Below, in pieces: positions 26,194 through 37,429 of a stretch of 64,000 bases of DNA (the first letter of the stretch is position 1; every line of letters begins with the position of its first letter). The DNA is taken from positions 248,001 through 312,000 of the forward strand of contig NZ_BMGT01000001.1 in assembly GCF_014640335.1 (NCBI RefSeq). The letters run 5' to 3'. The stretch is from Edaphobacter dinghuensis. GTDB lineage: Bacteria; Acidobacteriota; Terriglobia; Terriglobales; Acidobacteriaceae. A program made the position numbers and the translations under genes. The notes below the pieces were generated by a model. That model was not told where the DNA came from and did no database searches. It saw only the letters and a list, made by a program, of their open reading frames with translations.

Positions 26194-28833
26194 TTACTGA
26201 GAGACTGGCGGGGATGGTTCTTCTGCCCAGGGCAGGAAGAGCGAGAAGATGGTGCCGTGATGGATCGGATGCTGCGTGCTGCGAAAGCTGAGACGGCCCT
26301 GGTGGCGACGCACGATTCCGGCGGAGATCCAGAGGCCGAGGCCGGTGCCGTTGAGGTCTTTGGTGGTGTAGAAGGGTTCGAAGAGGCGCGCACGCACCTC
26401 GGGCGACATGCCGTGACCGGTGTCGGCGATGGTGATGCGGATGCCATGACGGCTCTTGCCGCGTGACTCGTCGGTGGCATCGTGGGCGCGAACGATGAGA
26501 CGGCCGCCCTGACGCATGGCGTCGATGGCGTTAGCGATCAGGTTGTTGAGCACCTGGCGGATGTCGTTTTCGAAGCAGAGGATGCGCGTCGTGGTGGCGT
26601 AGCAGGCTTCGACCTTGATGCTCGAGTTGGCGAGACGGCCCTGATAGAGATTGAGCACGGCGTTGACAAGCTCGGCTGCCGTAACATTGGTGGCGCGGAC
26701 AGCCTGACGATGGAAGCGGAGTGTCTGCGTGGCGATCTGGCAGACGCGGGAGAGCTCGCTCTGCGCCGTCTGCACGTAGGCCCGCGCGGATGGCGATAGA
26801 TCGTCGGTGAGTGCGATCAGGTAGAGCAGATTGGTGATGGCTTCGAGCGGGTTATTGATCTCGTGCGAGATGGAGCTGGCGAGGCGACCGACAGCGGCGA
26901 GCTTCTCGCTTTGAATGAGGGCGTTCTCCGCCTTCTTTTGATGAGTGATCTCGACGACGACGGCGGCGATGGCCTCGATCTTTCCATCGGCACTGTAAAT
27001 GGGAGAGTAGTTAACGCTCCAGAAGCGATGCTGGCCGGGACGGGTGGGCAGTTCGCCTTCGAGGATGTTATTTCTGACGGTATTGCCTGCGGCGACCTGT
27101 TGAAACAGCTCCTTCAGCCCTTCCAGCGGCGCGATCTCGAGGATGGAGCGACCGAGAATCTTATCTTTGGGCAGGCCAATGACCGCGGCCTGATGGTCGT
27201 TGACGCGCAGGTAGCGGAACTCGACCGGATCGAAGAGCGCAAGGCCGACGGGAGCGGTGTCGTAGATGGTCTCAAGCTCGGCGCGCTGGCGCTCGGTCTC
27301 GGCCTGCTTTTGCAGCAGCATCTCGGCGAAGGTCTTGCGGTCGTCGATGTCGATGGCGACGCCGAGCCAGTGGAGGACGGCGCCGGATGCATCGCGGATG
27401 GGCCGTGCGCGGATCCACCACCAACGCGACTGGCCATCGCGGGCGCGGATGAGGCGGGCTTCGTTGTCGTACTCGGAGCCGGCAGCGACACATTGGCTCC
27501 ATGTTTCGAGGATGCGGGCGCGGTCGTCGCGATGGAAGGCGGTGATCCAGTGATCGAGGTCTGCGGTGGTAAAGCCGAGATAGTCGCTGAACCCACGGTT
27601 GGCGTAAGTGATCTTGCCATGGGCGTCGCTCATCCAAAGGGCCTGCGGGTTGAGCTCGATCAATGCGCGGTAGCGGGCCTCGCTGGTGCCCAACGCTTCG
27701 ACGGTGAGCCGGTAGTCGTGGATGTCGATGCAGACGCCCAGCCAGCGGCGGCCAGTGGTGAAGTCGTCGGGAACGGGAAGCGCACGGCAGAGAAACCAGC
27801 GGTACTCTCCCGTAGACTTCTGCCGGAGGCGAAGCTGAACGTCCAGCATCTCGCCGCTGGCATGAACGCGCTGCCAGGCGGCGAGCAGCAGCGGCTGGTC
27901 CTCCGGATGAATGATGGCGAGCCAGTCCCGGTTGGAGTTGTCGTTGGGAGAGAGGCCGGCGTAGTCGAGCAGACGCTGGTTGGTGTAGCTGACGCCGGTG
28001 CCGTCCGAAGCCATCCAGATCATCTGGGGGTTGAGCTCGGTGAGCAGGCGATAGCGGGCCTCGCTTTCGCGAAGGGCTTCTTCTCCGCGGCGGCGCTCGG
28101 TGATATTGCGGAAGAAGACGATGATGCCGTCGTCGGTGGGGACCGACTGGATGTTGAGCCAGAGGTTGACCGGCTCGGGATAGTAGGCCTCGAACTCGGT
28201 TGGGACGCGCTGCTCCATGGCTTTGCGATAGTTGGAGCGGAAGGGCTCCAATACGCCGCGATGCAGGGAGTACCAAAAATTTTCACCAGTTAATGGGCCC
28301 GAGGCAAACATATCGACCGCGCGCCAGTTGGCGAAGGTGAAGTTCCAGGCGCGATCGAGGCAGACGATCGAATCCGGCATCGCATCGAACATCTGCTGGA
28401 GACGCTTGGTTGCGATGTCGCGAGTGTCTCTGGCCAGTTTCGCGACAGAGATGTCCTTATAGAAGACGGCGACGCCGTCCGCAAAGGGCATTACAAGAAC
28501 ATCCATCCAGACGCCGATGGGAGCACAATAAAACTCGAACTGGCGCGAGACGCGATGGCGCATGGCAGCCAGAAAGTTTTCTTCGAGGATGGTGCCGCGC
28601 GATTCCGGACGTATGTCCCAGTAGGTTTTTCCGATGGAACCGTCCGCGTCCAACTGGCTGATACGAATGGCCTGAGGGTTCGCGTAGAGGATACGGAAGT
28701 CGCGGTCGTAGGTGATGATGGCGTCGGGCGCGGCGTCGAGAAGCGCGGCGAAGTCCAGACCCGATGCCGCAGAAGAGCCCGCTTGCGGAGAAGATGCAGG
28801 TGACGCCGTATTCACGAAAGGCGTTTGTGGCAT
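26194..28833 (-). CDS. Soluble hybrid sensor histidine kinase with five PAS domains
   Basis: The 879-residue protein has no membrane segment. About five PAS modules can be seen in series: residues about 25-145, 145-260, 265-385, 390-510 and 525-645 (repeated ALRESEARYRLLTELNPQ and RYRALIELNPQALWMSD pairs mark the middle ones). A HisKA domain follows, with phospho-acceptor His657 in SSISHEINNPLEA, then a HATPase domain with GTGLGLWIS. No receiver domain or partner regulator is adjacent, so the output is unknown. Multiple PAS modules suggest integration of redox, light or ligand cues. The N-terminus is Ser/Ala-rich. Confidence 0.9.
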   Translation of the reverse strand: MPQTPFVNTASPASSPQAGSSAASGLDFAALLDAAPDAIITYDRDFRILYANPQAIRISQLDADGSIGKTYWDIRPESRGTILEENFLAAMRHRVSRQFEFYCAPIGVWMDVLVMPFADGVAVFYKDISVAKLARDTRDIATKRLQQMFDAMPDSIVCLDRAWNFTFANWRAVDMFASGPLTGENFWYSLHRGVLEPFRSNYRKAMEQRVPTEFEAYYPEPVNLWLNIQSVPTDDGIIVFFRNITERRRGEEALRESEARYRLLTELNPQMIWMASDGTGVSYTNQRLLDYAGLSPNDNSNRDWLAIIHPEDQPLLLAAWQRVHASGEMLDVQLRLRQKSTGEYRWFLCRALPVPDDFTTGRRWLGVCIDIHDYRLTVEALGTSEARYRALIELNPQALWMSDAHGKITYANRGFSDYLGFTTADLDHWITAFHRDDRARILETWSQCVAAGSEYDNEARLIRARDGQSRWWWIRARPIRDASGAVLHWLGVAIDIDDRKTFAEMLLQKQAETERQRAELETIYDTAPVGLALFDPVEFRYLRVNDHQAAVIGLPKDKILGRSILEIAPLEGLKELFQQVAAGNTVRNNILEGELPTRPGQHRFWSVNYSPIYSADGKIEAIAAVVVEITHQKKAENALIQSEKLAAVGRLASSISHEINNPLEAITNLLYLIALTDDLSPSARAYVQTAQSELSRVCQIATQTLRFHRQAVRATNVTAAELVNAVLNLYQGRLANSSIKVEACYATTTRILCFENDIRQVLNNLIANAIDAMRQGGRLIVRAHDATDESRGKSRHGIRITIADTGHGMSPEVRARLFEPFYTTKDLNGTGLGLWISAGIVRRHQGRLSFRSTQHPIHHGTIFSLFLPWAEEPSPPVSQ

Positions 28834-29583: not shown

Positions 29584-29801
29584 AACTTAATGATTACACA
29601 ATGGATCGTAGGCAGACTGATGACTCTTGTCAGAGCGCCGAAGTAACTGAGATGGAACTGTGACCGAAAAGTTACATTTGGCGGGGGCATTTTGGAGCCT
29701 AAGCTGTGTTTGCGGAAGATAAAATCGGATTAGCGAATGGCATTTGGCGAAAGCCATTTAAGTGTGACCATTTGATGAAATCAGACCCTGGGGTAGTGTG
29801 G

Positions 29802-30431
29802 ATGAAGCTTCGTTTTAACAGGTGGGCGGCGATGGTTGCCGTTGCGGCGATGGTATTGGCGCTGAGTGGATCGGCGAACGCGGAGGAGCCGACAGAGACA
29901 TTGCAAGTCCCGCAGGGCAAACAGTATTCGCTGCACCTCTACCAATTGCATACGCGCGAGAGCATTGACGTGGTGTACCGGGTGGGTGACACGTATATTC
30001 CGGAGGCACTCGATAAGCTGAACCACTTTTTGCGCGACTACCGTACCGACACGGTCAAGACATACGATCCGAAAGAGTTCGATGTGCTGCACGCGCTGAT
30101 GACAAAGCTGCGACGGCCCAATGGGGTGATCGATATCGTCTGCGGCTACAGAACTCCGGAGACCAATAACTTTTTGCGAACGCGCTCGGCCAACACCGGC
30201 GTCGCCGAACATAGCCAGCATATGCAGGCGAAGGCGATTGATATTCGCGTGCCGGGCGTCTCGACGGCCAGGCTGCGGAATGCGGCGCTGAGCCTGCATG
30301 AAGGCGGCGTGGGGTATTATCCGGTATCGAAGTTCGTGCACGTGGATGTGGGGCCGGTGCGGGAGTGGTCGTATGGGGTGCGGACGCGGCATCGTCGCTC
30401 GCGGGCTCGGGTAAGGGCGATTGGGGAGTAA
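29802..30431 (+). CDS. DUF882/YcbK-like M15-type peptidase, exported
   Basis: The ATG at 29802 gives a standard signal peptide (MKLRFNRWAAMVAVAAMVLA to SANAEE); upstream starts at 29706 and 29775 are less likely. Of the 209 residues, the C-terminal domain carries a zinc-site pattern: CGYRTPETNN, then SQHMQAKAIDIRV (His and Asp), then KFVHVDVG (second His). This is the M15/DUF882 fold, related to MepK/YcbK murein endopeptidases. It probably cleaves peptidoglycan crosslinks in the periplasm. The Arg-rich tail is unusual. Confidence 0.85.
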   Translation: MKLRFNRWAAMVAVAAMVLALSGSANAEEPTETLQVPQGKQYSLHLYQLHTRESIDVVYRVGDTYIPEALDKLNHFLRDYRTDTVKTYDPKEFDVLHALMTKLRRPNGVIDIVCGYRTPETNNFLRTRSANTGVAEHSQHMQAKAIDIRVPGVSTARLRNAALSLHEGGVGYYPVSKFVHVDVGPVREWSYGVRTRHRRSRARVRAIGE

Positions 30432-30570: not shown

Positions 30571-30600
30571 AAAAGGCCGCCATTGCTGGCGGCCTTCTTT
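30571..30600. terminator. Bidirectional terminator
   Basis: AAGGCCGCCA and TGGCGGCCTT pair perfectly around TTGC, flanked by AAAA and TCTTT. It separates the convergent DUF882 and radical SAM genes. Confidence 0.85.
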
Positions 30601-30640: not shown

Positions 30641-32740
30641 CTAGTCGCCGGCTACGGTCTCTTCGGTTTCGACCTTGGGAGCGGCGGGCTTGATTTCGCC
30701 CAGGGAGATGAAGCCCGGAACTTCCTTCTCGCCCAGCACTTCCTTGCGGTAGAGCTTGGCCATCTTGGCGTTCTCGGCGTCCTGCTTGATCTTCGCGTCG
30801 CGGGCCCGGATCTTCTCTTCGCGGGCGTTCTTGGCGATACCGGACTTGTCGAAGGTATCGTTGGCCGCTGAGTTGACGTGGGCTTCGTTGAGCACGAGGT
30901 CGTACTTGGACTCCTTCTCCAGACCGACCTTCTTACCACCGGCGAAGATCTCGTGACGGCCATGCTCCTCGTACCACTTGGTGAGGGTGGAGGTCATGTG
31001 CATCTTCTCGATGATATTGCGCCAGCCTACGCCGGTGTTGTACGCGCAGAAGCTGATCTCACCCTCTTGTGTGGCATAGGGGATGATGCACTGCTCGGTG
31101 CGGCGGAAGTCGTAGTTGAAGAGGTCCTGGAACCACATGCCGGCGATGAAGAGGAAGTTCCAGCGGTCAGCGCGGCGCTTCTCGATGTCGGCCATGGTGC
31201 GGTCGCCGGTCACTTTGCCGTAGTCGCGGCCAGTGGCGCCGAAGCACTTGTCGAACTTCTGCAGCAGGTCCACGATCTTGAAGTGCGTCGGAGCCTTGGT
31301 GGGATCGTAGTTGCGCAGCAGCGCCAGCGAGACGCCGACGATGGAGAGGAACTTGCCGCGAGCAGCATCGTTGACGCGAGCGACGTCGCGGGCGAGCTGG
31401 GTGGCGTTGAGGAATGCTGTGACCGGAACAGCTTCCTTGGTCTCCTTGTCGATCATCAGCGCCATGCCGATACCGCAGTTCGGGTGGCAACCGCAGGAGA
31501 GCTGGCCCCAGTCGTGGTTCGGCCCGTGAACGAGGTCGGCCCAGTCGCTGAAGGTGCTCATAAAGGAGATGGGGAACCAGTCGCGGGTGCTCTCGCCGAG
31601 GCCGGTCTGGTTGCGGATGTCGTGCGCCAGGTGCGACAGCGTGTAGCGCTGAGCGGCGCGGCGCTCATCGGAGATATCCTCGTCGCGGCCAGTGAAGCTG
31701 ACCGGCTGGAAGCTGAGGAAGTTGATCTTCTTCGGGTTGTCGAGCGCGAACTCGATGATGCGGCCAACCTGCTCGTTGTTGATGCCGTTGACGATGGTGG
31801 TGACGGGAACGATGTCCACGCCGGCCTCGTGCAGGTTATGGATGGCCTGGAGCTTGACGTCGAATGCGTTACCGACCTTGCGGTGCGAGTTGGCCGCGTT
31901 GCCGATACCGTCGAACTGGAGGTAGGCGTAGCGGAGACCGGCATCGGCGGCAGCCTTGGCGAACTCCTTGGACTTGGCGAACTCGATGCCGTTGGTTGCG
32001 GCCTGCACCGAGTTGTAGCCAACCTTGCGGGCGTAGGCGACAGCGTCGAGGAAGTACGGCGACAGCGTGGGCTCGCCACCCGAGAACTGCACGCTCATCT
32101 GACGACGCGGCTTGATGGTGATGGCGTTGTCGAGCATGGTCTTGATCTCGTCCCACGTAAGCTCGTGGACGAAGCCGACCTGGTTGGCGTCCATGAAGCA
32201 GGGGTCGCACATCATGTTGCAACGGTTGGTCAGGTCGATGGTCAGGACCGATCCGCGGCCGTGGGTCACGGTCGAGGTGCCGTGGTTGTGCAGCTTCTCG
32301 TCGTTGTGGGCACGGATGTCGCGGCCGGGGAAGACGTCTTCGAGGTGCTTCATCATCGGCGGGTCGATGGACATGACGTCCTCGAAGTGGCCGTGGATGG
32401 GGCAGTCCTTCACCATCAGGATCTGGTTATCGCGCTCGATGATCTGCGCCTTGATCTCACCGACCTTCTCGTTGAGAAGGATCTCGTGGGGCAGCTTGCC
32501 GTCGACGATCTGCTGGCGGATCTCAGGGATGCACTTGGGGCAGAGGGAGTCGGTGGTACGCGGCCAGCCGAGGGGCGGCTTCTCCTTCTGGTAGCTCTTG
32601 AGCAGAGGTTTGTCGCTCCACTTGGGGGTAAAGCTCTCGTTGGGGCTGATCGAGTTCAGCTTATTGAAGACAACCCAACCGGCCTTGGCTACCTGCGTGA
32701 GAGATTTCTCGAAGAACTTCGATGGCTTTGCTTGTGACAT
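30641..32740 (-). CDS. Large radical SAM protein of the Tes/MJ0619-like (membrane-spanning lipid synthase) type
   Basis: The 699-residue protein begins after AGGAG. An N-terminal CPKC (Cys67, Cys70) and KDCPIHGH (Cys113) form a rubredoxin- or zinc-like site. The radical SAM cluster motif CNMMCDPC is at Cys174, 178 and 181, followed by SAM-binding GGEPT (221-225). Further cysteines occur at 416, 418 and 422 (SCGCHPNC), 499, 551 and 565, enough for extra Fe-S clusters. This layout, and the split CPxC/CPxHG start, match the archaeal tetraether synthase and related bacterial enzymes that join lipid tails. The C-terminal 80 residues are a charged helical extension. Function is inferred. Confidence 0.75.
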   Translation of the reverse strand: MSQAKPSKFFEKSLTQVAKAGWVVFNKLNSISPNESFTPKWSDKPLLKSYQKEKPPLGWPRTTDSLCPKCIPEIRQQIVDGKLPHEILLNEKVGEIKAQIIERDNQILMVKDCPIHGHFEDVMSIDPPMMKHLEDVFPGRDIRAHNDEKLHNHGTSTVTHGRGSVLTIDLTNRCNMMCDPCFMDANQVGFVHELTWDEIKTMLDNAITIKPRRQMSVQFSGGEPTLSPYFLDAVAYARKVGYNSVQAATNGIEFAKSKEFAKAAADAGLRYAYLQFDGIGNAANSHRKVGNAFDVKLQAIHNLHEAGVDIVPVTTIVNGINNEQVGRIIEFALDNPKKINFLSFQPVSFTGRDEDISDERRAAQRYTLSHLAHDIRNQTGLGESTRDWFPISFMSTFSDWADLVHGPNHDWGQLSCGCHPNCGIGMALMIDKETKEAVPVTAFLNATQLARDVARVNDAARGKFLSIVGVSLALLRNYDPTKAPTHFKIVDLLQKFDKCFGATGRDYGKVTGDRTMADIEKRRADRWNFLFIAGMWFQDLFNYDFRRTEQCIIPYATQEGEISFCAYNTGVGWRNIIEKMHMTSTLTKWYEEHGRHEIFAGGKKVGLEKESKYDLVLNEAHVNSAANDTFDKSGIAKNAREEKIRARDAKIKQDAENAKMAKLYRKEVLGEKEVPGFISLGEIKPAAPKVETEETVAGD

Positions 32741-32959
32741 TGATTTCTGTCTCCTGACAGTGGCCTGAAGCGGAAGATATACACGTCGCTTCTTCCAGCC
32801 AATCTAACTATTTATCTTCCAGCCTACCTAGCTATTGCTTGGATGCGGAAGTGCACATCCAGGTGCCCATTTTGTGTCCCTTTTCCTAGCAGGCACAACA
32901 GCTTACGACGCTTTCAAGAGTACGATTTTGTCGCCAGACTTTGAACAACTGAACGCCGA

Positions 32960-36428: not shown

Positions 36429-36671
36429 ATGGCTTTTGAAGATTCCACAGCCCCAAAGCGCCCCTGGGAACAGCGTCTGCACGAGGCCGGAACCCGTGTC
36501 GAGGAAGACCTTCGCCGCTTTGTGACCTACTTCAACGAAGAGATTGTGCCTGATGTGCGCCGCAACGGTTCCGCAGCGCTTCGTTCAGCGGCGGCAGAGT
36601 TGAACCGGCTGGCCCAGCGGATGGATGACACAGCGCGCAAGACTCCGCCGCAGGATGAGCCAAAATTTTGA
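36429..36671 (+). CDS. Small hypothetical protein preceding rlpA
   Basis: The 80-residue protein has a strong ribosome site (GGGAGG). It is highly charged and mostly helical (LHEAGTRVEEDLRRFVTYFN, then LRSAAAELNRLAQRMDD), with no signal peptide or membrane segment. Its stop overlaps the TTG start of rlpA, so the two are translationally coupled. A cytoplasmic coiled-coil partner or regulator is possible. I do not recognise a family. Confidence 0.72.
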   Translation: MAFEDSTAPKRPWEQRLHEAGTRVEEDLRRFVTYFNEEIVPDVRRNGSAALRSAAAELNRLAQRMDDTARKTPPQDEPKF

Positions 36672-37429
36672 GCCGCTCGCGCCTCGCTTACGCGGTTACC
36701 CTGTCAGCGCTGATGCTGCTGGCGAGCGGGTGTCACCGAGAGACGCCTCGCGCCTATCGCCAGCCTCCGCCGCCGGCGCTGCCGAGTGCGGACACCTCTA
36801 ACCGCGCGAGCAATGCCCCAAGCCGCAATCGTGATCGTGACATGGAAGAGACTCCGCCGCAGCCTTATACGGAAGGCAGGCCGGTTTCGAGCGAGGTTGG
36901 ACTGGCGAGCTGGTATGGGCCGCCCTACGCCGGACGCAAGGGTGCAGACGGTACTGTCTACGACCAGAATGCGATGACAGCGGCCCACCTGACGCTGCCG
37001 CTGGGAACGCTGGTGCGCGTGACGAACCTGACCACCAACCAATCTGCCGTCGTGCGCATTACCGACCGCGGGCCCTTTGTTCGCGGCCGCATCATCGACC
37101 TCTCGCTTGCGGCTGCCAAGGCGATCGGCGTCTATCGCGTCGGCGTCGCCAGGGTACGGGTCGAGGCGTTTGCCTCTGCTACGCCGCAGGTCGCCGGACG
37201 ATGGTGCGTCCAGGTCGGTGCCTTCTCGCGCGAGAAGGATGCTGTGAAGCTGAAGGACCAACTGAGCCGCCGCTACACCACCGCCAAGGTGATTGAGTTT
37301 GCCGGGCCTACTGGCCATTGGGTTCGCATCAATCCATTGCAGCCCGACCGTACTCACGCCAACGAGGTCGCCGAGAGCATTCACTCCGCTGACCCCGATG
37401 CGCTGCCTTACATCGTCCGAACCAACTAA
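36668..37429 (+). CDS. rlpA: RlpA family septal lytic transglycosylase lipoprotein with SPOR domain
   Basis: Translation starts at TTG, overlapping the preceding stop. The 253-residue lipoprotein has lipobox LLASGC (Cys22) and a Pro/Arg-rich linker to about residue 70. A double-psi beta-barrel RlpA domain follows, with VGLASWYGPPYAGRKGADG, the catalytic-type Asp in ITDRGPFVRGRIIDLS, and AAHLTLPLGT. A C-terminal SPOR domain (GRWCVQVGAFSREKDAVKL) binds denuded septal glycan. RlpA cleaves such glycans during division in Pseudomonas. Outer-membrane lipoprotein location is expected. Confidence 0.93.
   Translation: MSRSRLAYAVTLSALMLLASGCHRETPRAYRQPPPPALPSADTSNRASNAPSRNRDRDMEETPPQPYTEGRPVSSEVGLASWYGPPYAGRKGADGTVYDQNAMTAAHLTLPLGTLVRVTNLTTNQSAVVRITDRGPFVRGRIIDLSLAAAKAIGVYRVGVARVRVEAFASATPQVAGRWCVQVGAFSREKDAVKLKDQLSRRYTTAKVIEFAGPTGHWVRINPLQPDRTHANEVAESIHSADPDALPYIVRTN

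Follow-up and report, generated by a model that had tools for sequence, protein, structure and literature searches.

Iso-diabolic acid is a presumed building block of the brGDGTs that underlie soil and lake temperature proxies, and the question raised by this locus is which protein makes it. The window analyzed here, a term used throughout for the whole stretch of 64,000 nucleotides from Edaphobacter dinghuensis, encodes a radical SAM protein akin to archaeal tetraether synthase (Tes, MJ0619), which fuses a pair of lipid tails into a single chain across the membrane. The protein departs from standard Tes in falling into a separate clade under the equivalog cut-off, hereafter the long form. By analogy with MJ0619, we give a probability of roughly 0.73 to the reading that it is a Tes-type membrane-spanning-lipid synthase that lacks the N-terminal auxiliary [Fe4S4] cluster ([Fe4S4]N) and joins iso-C15 tails into iso-diabolic acid. 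The long form is a strong candidate for the maker of this lipid, on which a much-used climate proxy draws. The enzyme that joins the two acids has been termed “still unknown” (PMC10087280).

The open reading frame, with an ATG start, was read as the single 699-residue gene of the preliminary description, with the following features at its ends:

30641..32740, minus strand: long-form Tes-like radical SAM gene, 699 aa (open reading frame, searches, fold)
32751..32755, minus strand: ribosome-binding site AGGAG, 10 nt 5' of the ATG (sequence read directly)
30573..30596, minus strand: perfect 10-bp hairpin, then a T-rich run (TTATTTA), a probable intrinsic terminator as judged from the letters (sequence read directly)

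The divergent MFS neighbor described earlier was found (PF07690; 32960-34384, plus strand), and an M15 peptidase-like gene (29706-30431, plus strand) is convergent with the Tes-like gene, which therefore stands alone. Across 40 loci (39 relatives and the window) there was no conserved operon or neighborhood: an rlpA-like gene and few other genes recurred, in at most 5 of the 40. One “conserved” neighbor group in this comparison was rejected as false, having been produced by antisense ORFs. Such a frame, 619 aa long, lies opposite the Tes-like gene itself (30878-32737, plus strand), with comparable frames opposite other long-form copies; it is most likely an artifact of codon composition. The window's own RlpA-like gene (DPBB_1 and SPOR; 36668-37429, plus strand) lies about 4 kb from the Tes-like gene, and because several family members also have one close to their long-form gene, local order is partly preserved. 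A histidine kinase with several PAS-fold stretches is encoded at 26194-28833 (minus strand).

Kinship with Tes was evident in both sequence and fold. A sequence search of solved structures matched residues 95-589 to MJ0619, the tetraether/macrocyclic archaeol synthase GDGT-MAS (7tol, 7tom; E = 3.1e-58), the sole whole-length match; 5 other PDB matches were to the radical SAM core only. Pfam recognized Radical_SAM and the zinc ribbon PF23545. Among NCBIfam models, Tes (NF045702) ranked first with 314.7 bits (313.7 in the genome search), below its cut-off of 450; the runner-up, TrsS (NF045646), has the radical SAM core in common with the window protein, which at 212.3 bits stays under the TrsS cut-off of 490. 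An AlphaFold2 model built from 30 family members (mean pLDDT 78.6, pTM 0.84) aligned with 7tom over 468 residues (Z 34.1, rmsd 3.5, 28% identity), the next fold match after 7tom and 7tol being MoaA (Z 18.3), and Foldseek matched the model to the Tes fold with an E of 1.8e-26. Of the 3 Tes-model matches in the genome, only the window gene was whole length, and it was also the only match to the PF23545 zinc ribbon.

MJ0619 holds a rubredoxin-type site (C9/C12/C33/H36), [Fe4S4]N (C73/C77/C80 and a histidine, taken here as H83), the SAM cluster, and a C-terminal [Fe4S4] cluster ([Fe4S4]C) with Met439 as a labile ligand (PMC9433317, in part). The corresponding and additional features of the window protein are as follows:

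32654..32725, minus strand: amphipathic N-terminal helix, residues 6-29, absent from MJ0619 (structure model, hydrophobic moment)
32393..32542, minus strand: rubredoxin-type iron site C67, C70 (CPKC), C113, and H116 (CPIHG), aligned with MJ0619 C9, C12, C33, and H36 (40/40 long rows, PF23545)
32273..32293, minus strand: LHNHGTS, residues 150-156, at the place of the Tes [Fe4S4]N ligands (alignment)
32198..32221, minus strand: radical SAM cluster motif C174-x3-C178-x2-C181 (Pfam, alignment)
32066..32080, minus strand: GGEPT, residues 221-225, which we take to be the SAM-binding motif of the radical SAM family (open reading frame translation, alignment)
31475..31495, minus strand: CGCHPNC, with C416, C418, H419, and C422, the last aligned with MJ0619 C338 (alignment)
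31136..31138, minus strand: M535, counterpart of MJ0619 Met439 (alignment and PMC9433317, in part)
31088..31090, minus strand: C551, counterpart of MJ0619 C455 (alignment)
31076..31078, minus strand: Y555, counterpart of the active-site Tyr459 of MJ0619 (alignment and PMC9433317, in part)
31046..31048, minus strand: C565, counterpart of MJ0619 C470 (alignment)
30641..30958, minus strand: C-terminal extension past the part aligned to solved Tes, from about residue 595, with a helix at 639-667 (model)

The rubredoxin-type, SAM-cluster, and C-cluster positions were kept in 40/40 long-form rows, as were the counterparts of Met439, Tyr459, Gln268, Ser271, and Arg275. Since Met439 and Tyr459 can each be altered in MJ0619 with activity remaining (PMC9433317, in part), their conservation by itself is no proof of mechanism. 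C422, C551, and C565 are probable [Fe4S4]C ligands, given their invariance. Within the N-terminal helix, 18-residue hydrophobic moments were mostly 0.4-0.5, compared to a protein mean of 0.22, and this helix may contact the membrane surface.

Much of the preliminary description was borne out by these comparisons. Its CPxC/CPxHG site, CxxxCxxC motif (174-181), and GGEPT lie at C67/C70, C113/H116, C174/C178/C181, and 221-225, and the kinship it proposed with Tes/MJ0619 agrees with the structure search, the top NCBIfam score, the fold, and the conserved ligand positions. The extra cysteines it listed (416-422, 499, 551, and 565) are all present; C416, C418, C422, C551, and C565 are conserved in 40/40 long-form rows, while position 499 is Cys in just 4/40. 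The Tes cysteine layout that it recognized holds at the rubredoxin-type, SAM, and C-cluster positions and breaks down at [Fe4S4]N, whose ligands are absent from 40/40 long rows. The profile check placed the Tes model first, yet with a score short of the cut-off, and in the tree the long form was a separate clade (100/100).

None of the four [Fe4S4]N ligands was present in any of the 40 long rows, versus four of four in 30/30 canonical rows. At the ligand positions the window protein has K149, H153, S156, and T159. Among the 40 long rows, the C73 position held K in 24, a gap in 6, H in 4, T in 3, D in 2, and E in 1; the C77 position held H in all 40; the C80 position held S in 39 and A in 1; and the H83 position held K in 23, T in 11, R in 3, Q in 2, and L in 1. 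H151 and H153 were invariant (40/40), and a single Cys elsewhere in the stretch was seen in 2/40. The best 80 of 580 named loci all carried an LHxHG[TS]S-type motif before TNRCN, and none of these 80 had a Cys within the 30 residues N-terminal of TNRCN. In addition to lacking C73, C77, C80, and H83, the long form differs from Tes/GDGT-MAS in having an additional helix at its N terminus and some 100 more residues at its C terminus.

At the level of the phylum, the Tes model matched 167 of 297 Acidobacteriota genomes (completeness of at least 85%) in two score groups; among the matches listed, none scored between 350 and 472 bits. The canonical group comprised 31 genomes above the cut-off (472 to 619 bits), and the window gene fell within the other group. 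Rows of the long form spanned 647-853 aa (n = 40) and canonical rows 464-638 aa (n = 30), counted from stop to stop, the window excepted. In a tree of these 70 rows and 1 archaeal row, the long form made up one side of a branch with a support of 100/100, its stem measuring 2.18 changes per column. Canonical rows did not form a single clade, as 6 of the 30 (families f4 and f50) grouped with the long side (100/99); the program warned of long branches meeting, so where the long form arises in this tree is uncertain. Some genomes of family f20 encode two long-form paralogues, the second of which forms its own deep branch (L054, L073, L075).

The long form proved widespread. Its profile matched 147/297 genomes, and with 6 canonical or partial matches set aside (G002, G017, G091, G099, G108, G262), about 141 carried it, including every sampled genome of family f1, to which the window belongs (34/34), and of family f2 (2/2). 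Within the class, 367/379 genomes with at least 95% completeness had a Tes-type match and 49 had the canonical form, of which 39 also had the long form and 10 did not. Among the dual genomes, the long form was split or partial in G325, G491, G522, G530, and G572, ran past the contig end in G331, and had an internal stop in G346. The 12 matchless class genomes included 3 with long-form pieces and 9 with nothing (E <= 1e-20, long-form profile). In family f2, the long form was found in 66/68 genomes at 98% completeness, the other 2 having canonical Tes alone, and in 153/170 at 90% completeness. A canonical-Tes search took in 9 of the 17 f2 genomes without a long-form match: 4 had canonical Tes (G329, G552, G556, G582), 1 had a piece (G534), and 4 had neither (G353, G383, G439, G584). 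Absence of the long form was commoner beside canonical Tes (10/49 versus 9 or 12/330; Fisher 2e-5 and 1e-4, a test that ignores kinship, draws on a capped match list, and treats as carriers the 318 class genomes whose matches all scored below the cut-off, of which a few, namely G623, G581, and G603, had unusual frames or scores), suggesting that the two forms can substitute for each other. A COX1-family match occurred in 125/131 long-only versus 13/21 canonical-only genomes (kinship ignored); because it was also common in genomes with neither form (99/135), and the COX1 family is broader than respiratory oxidases, the link to oxygen is only a hint.

The canonical acidobacterial Tes occurs in the same phylum as the long form, at times in the same genome, and in 11/39 dual genomes the two genes lay 0.3-11 kb apart on the same contig (G614, G346, G418, G496, G592, G479, G526, G245, G585, G102, G056). 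Pairs within 15 kb spanned 9 genera and 3 families, compared with a chance expectation of about 0.2-0.4. Because contigs are fragmented, 11/39 is a lower bound; because 8 of the 11 pairs belong to family f1, the cases are not independent and their true independent number is smaller. Apart from its [Fe4S4]N ligands, what distinguishes the canonical form is its association with DUF2229, presumably a domain of PlsA/Ger and used here as a proxy for ether-bond makers. DUF2229 was found in 22/31 canonical carriers versus 46/266 other genomes, in 10/10 genomes of the 297 that hold both forms, and in 27/141 long-form carriers versus 41/156 others (kinship ignored in both comparisons). In the window's genome, there was no DUF2229 match. 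At two loci (L185/L186; G184 C20 and G262 C59), canonical tes adjoins a gene of 1032-1046 aa with BadFG and DUF2229, an arrangement suggestive of a tes-plsA unit that serves ether lipids; a 475-aa gene also lies beside tes there, the L185 copy being without a Pfam match.

Iso-diabolic acid, the product named in the preliminary description, is consistent with lipid measurements on the nearest relatives in culture (PMC11354219 and PMC12935467, both in part). The closest named copy among the matches listed, 94% identical, is that of Edaphobacter modestus DSM 18101 (L082), in which iso-diabolic acid made up 30.4%; the figure for E. aggregans was 26.4% (Table 1 of PMC11354219, in part). Six Edaphobacter strains, E. 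aggregans included, had 11.8-30.4% with ethers undetected, an absence that contrasts with earlier work and that the authors blame on growth conditions (PMC11354219, in part). Strains of the Occallatibacter group had 26.8-49.2% (PMC12935467, in part), and across the cultured Terriglobia tabulated in these two papers the acid was 12 to 49% of fatty acids (PMC11354219 and PMC12935467, in part). It has also been reported from Chloracidobacterium and Pyrinomonas (PMC12816986 and PMC4644332, in part). Solibacter usitatus, which makes brGDGTs and has PlsAR homologues and two Tes homologues, had undetectable iso-diabolic acid (PMC10087280); it weighs against a simple rule if one of these homologues is the long form.

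As for the chemistry, the reaction, the substrate, and the order of steps would follow MJ0619 by analogy. Two iso-C15 acyl tails, both belonging to ester phospholipids, would enter a hydrophobic pocket with their branched ends, and the fold match suggests a hydrophobic tunnel for these tails. A 5'-deoxyadenosyl radical from SAM would abstract a hydrogen at the end of the first tail, whose carbon would be held as a carbon-sulfur adduct on the C-terminal [Fe4S4]; a second SAM would yield a second radical, and the tails would couple, sp3 carbon to sp3 carbon, to give ester-bound iso-diabolic acid. MJ0619 purified from E. coli held two bound ester phospholipids (PMC9433317, in part), so a pocket of the Tes type accepts ester lipids. 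The N-terminal cluster of MJ0619 is located at the surface (PMC9433317, in part) and might deliver electrons; its loss from the long form suggests another electron path, perhaps via the rubredoxin-type site. A broader scheme, which we hold only tentatively, would have two Tes-type synthases divide the work: a cluster-stripped long form, fitted to cells in contact with air, making iso-diabolic acid from the iso-C15 tails of ester phospholipids, and the canonical form together with ether-bond makers producing brGDGTs. If that is so, Csp3-Csp3 coupling of the archaeal type can proceed without the third auxiliary metal site and has been tailored to the ester lipids of aerobic bacteria.

The tested bacterial synthase, Mss of Thermotoga, seems from control-genome searches to be another protein or a more distant one. 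The window protein is Tes-type, and the T. maritima control genome lacked matches to PF23545 and, at E <= 1e-40, to the Tes model (at E <= 1e-3, the model matched 14/14 control genomes, T. maritima included); the comparison was made through this genome. Mss (Thermotoga, Bacillota) resembles the long form in its proposed product type, and its models are said to retain the architecture of Tes, catalytic architecture included (PMC13274423, in part). PF04055 matched 17 times in the E. dinghuensis genome, counting the window gene. One of the remaining 16 proteins could be an Mss; 9 of the 16 pass an NCBIfam cut-off (MoaA, MiaB, RimO, HpnJ, HpnH, HemW, MqnE, LipA, RlmN) and 7 pass none; 4 of these match the MqnC, Rv2578c/PA0069, QueE, and RaSEA models below cut-off, and L005, L007, and L167 are without a usable family call. 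L007 (G000 C3:1030962-1031447) is a B12-binding type radical SAM protein; as a guess, it might act as a methylase that installs the C5/C6 methyl groups of iso-diabolic acid.

The same fold and radical chemistry might instead serve a different lipid reaction, such as an intramolecular chain bond (as in H-shaped lipids, cf. Gms), ring formation, or chain methylation, with iso-diabolic acid made by another enzyme. Because the [Fe4S4]N ligands are lost and the stem branch is very long, chemistry or substrate may indeed differ from those of Tes, and any of L005, the B12-type L007, and L167 could do another lipid job. We nonetheless consider this unlikely: the C-cluster positions, where the first tail is presumably stored, are invariant in 40/40 long rows, the genome offers no second whole-length Tes or zinc-ribbon match, and the 2 of 68 f2 genomes at 98% completeness that lack the long form carry canonical Tes, although some genomes in the wider sets have neither.

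Less probable still is a brGDGT synthase that, like archaeal Tes, acts mainly on ether lipids. E. aggregans has one Tes homologue (32% identity), presumably the long form, and forms brGDGTs when oxygen-limited, and bacterial homologues have been proposed as brGDGT makers (PMC8941075, in part). Against this, the DUF2229 proxy is missing from the window's genome and tracks canonical Tes rather than the long form (kinship ignored), and the six Edaphobacter strains had iso-diabolic acid without ethers, with the authors' caveat on growth conditions. A non-lipid enzyme, for instance a maturase or one that modifies pterins or peptides, appears very improbable. The zinc-ribbon model PF23545 does carry a pterin-methylase name, and models for NirJ, MoaA, and peptide maturases recognize the radical SAM core as well, all under their cut-offs; yet only GDGT-MAS matched over the whole length, and the pterin-methylase annotation first given to MJ0619 was deemed incorrect on the basis of its structure (PMC9433317, in part). 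Joining of iso-C15 tails into iso-diabolic acid remains the reading we prefer.

Bacterial Tes homologues in Acidobacteria, E. aggregans included, were already in print in 2022, and GDGT-MAS homologues have been noted in bacteria without known biphytanyl chains (PMC9433317, in part). In the open-licence literature, we found no paper on the loss of [Fe4S4]N, the split into two forms, or the linkage of long and canonical genes; the missing cluster, the distribution, the gene linkage, and the ester/ether split are new here. With a single widespread gene, the sole whole-length Tes-type gene in its genome, the iso-diabolic acid question is open to genetic test, and the cluster-less long form provides a natural test of the role of the auxiliary clusters in tetraether synthase. 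Viral sequences gave 3 weak matches to the long-form core (25-33% identity) and none to canonical Tes. Two records titled Rhodanobacteraceae (L102, L106) carried an acidobacterial-type copy at 85-89% identity and are probably mislabelled metagenome bins.
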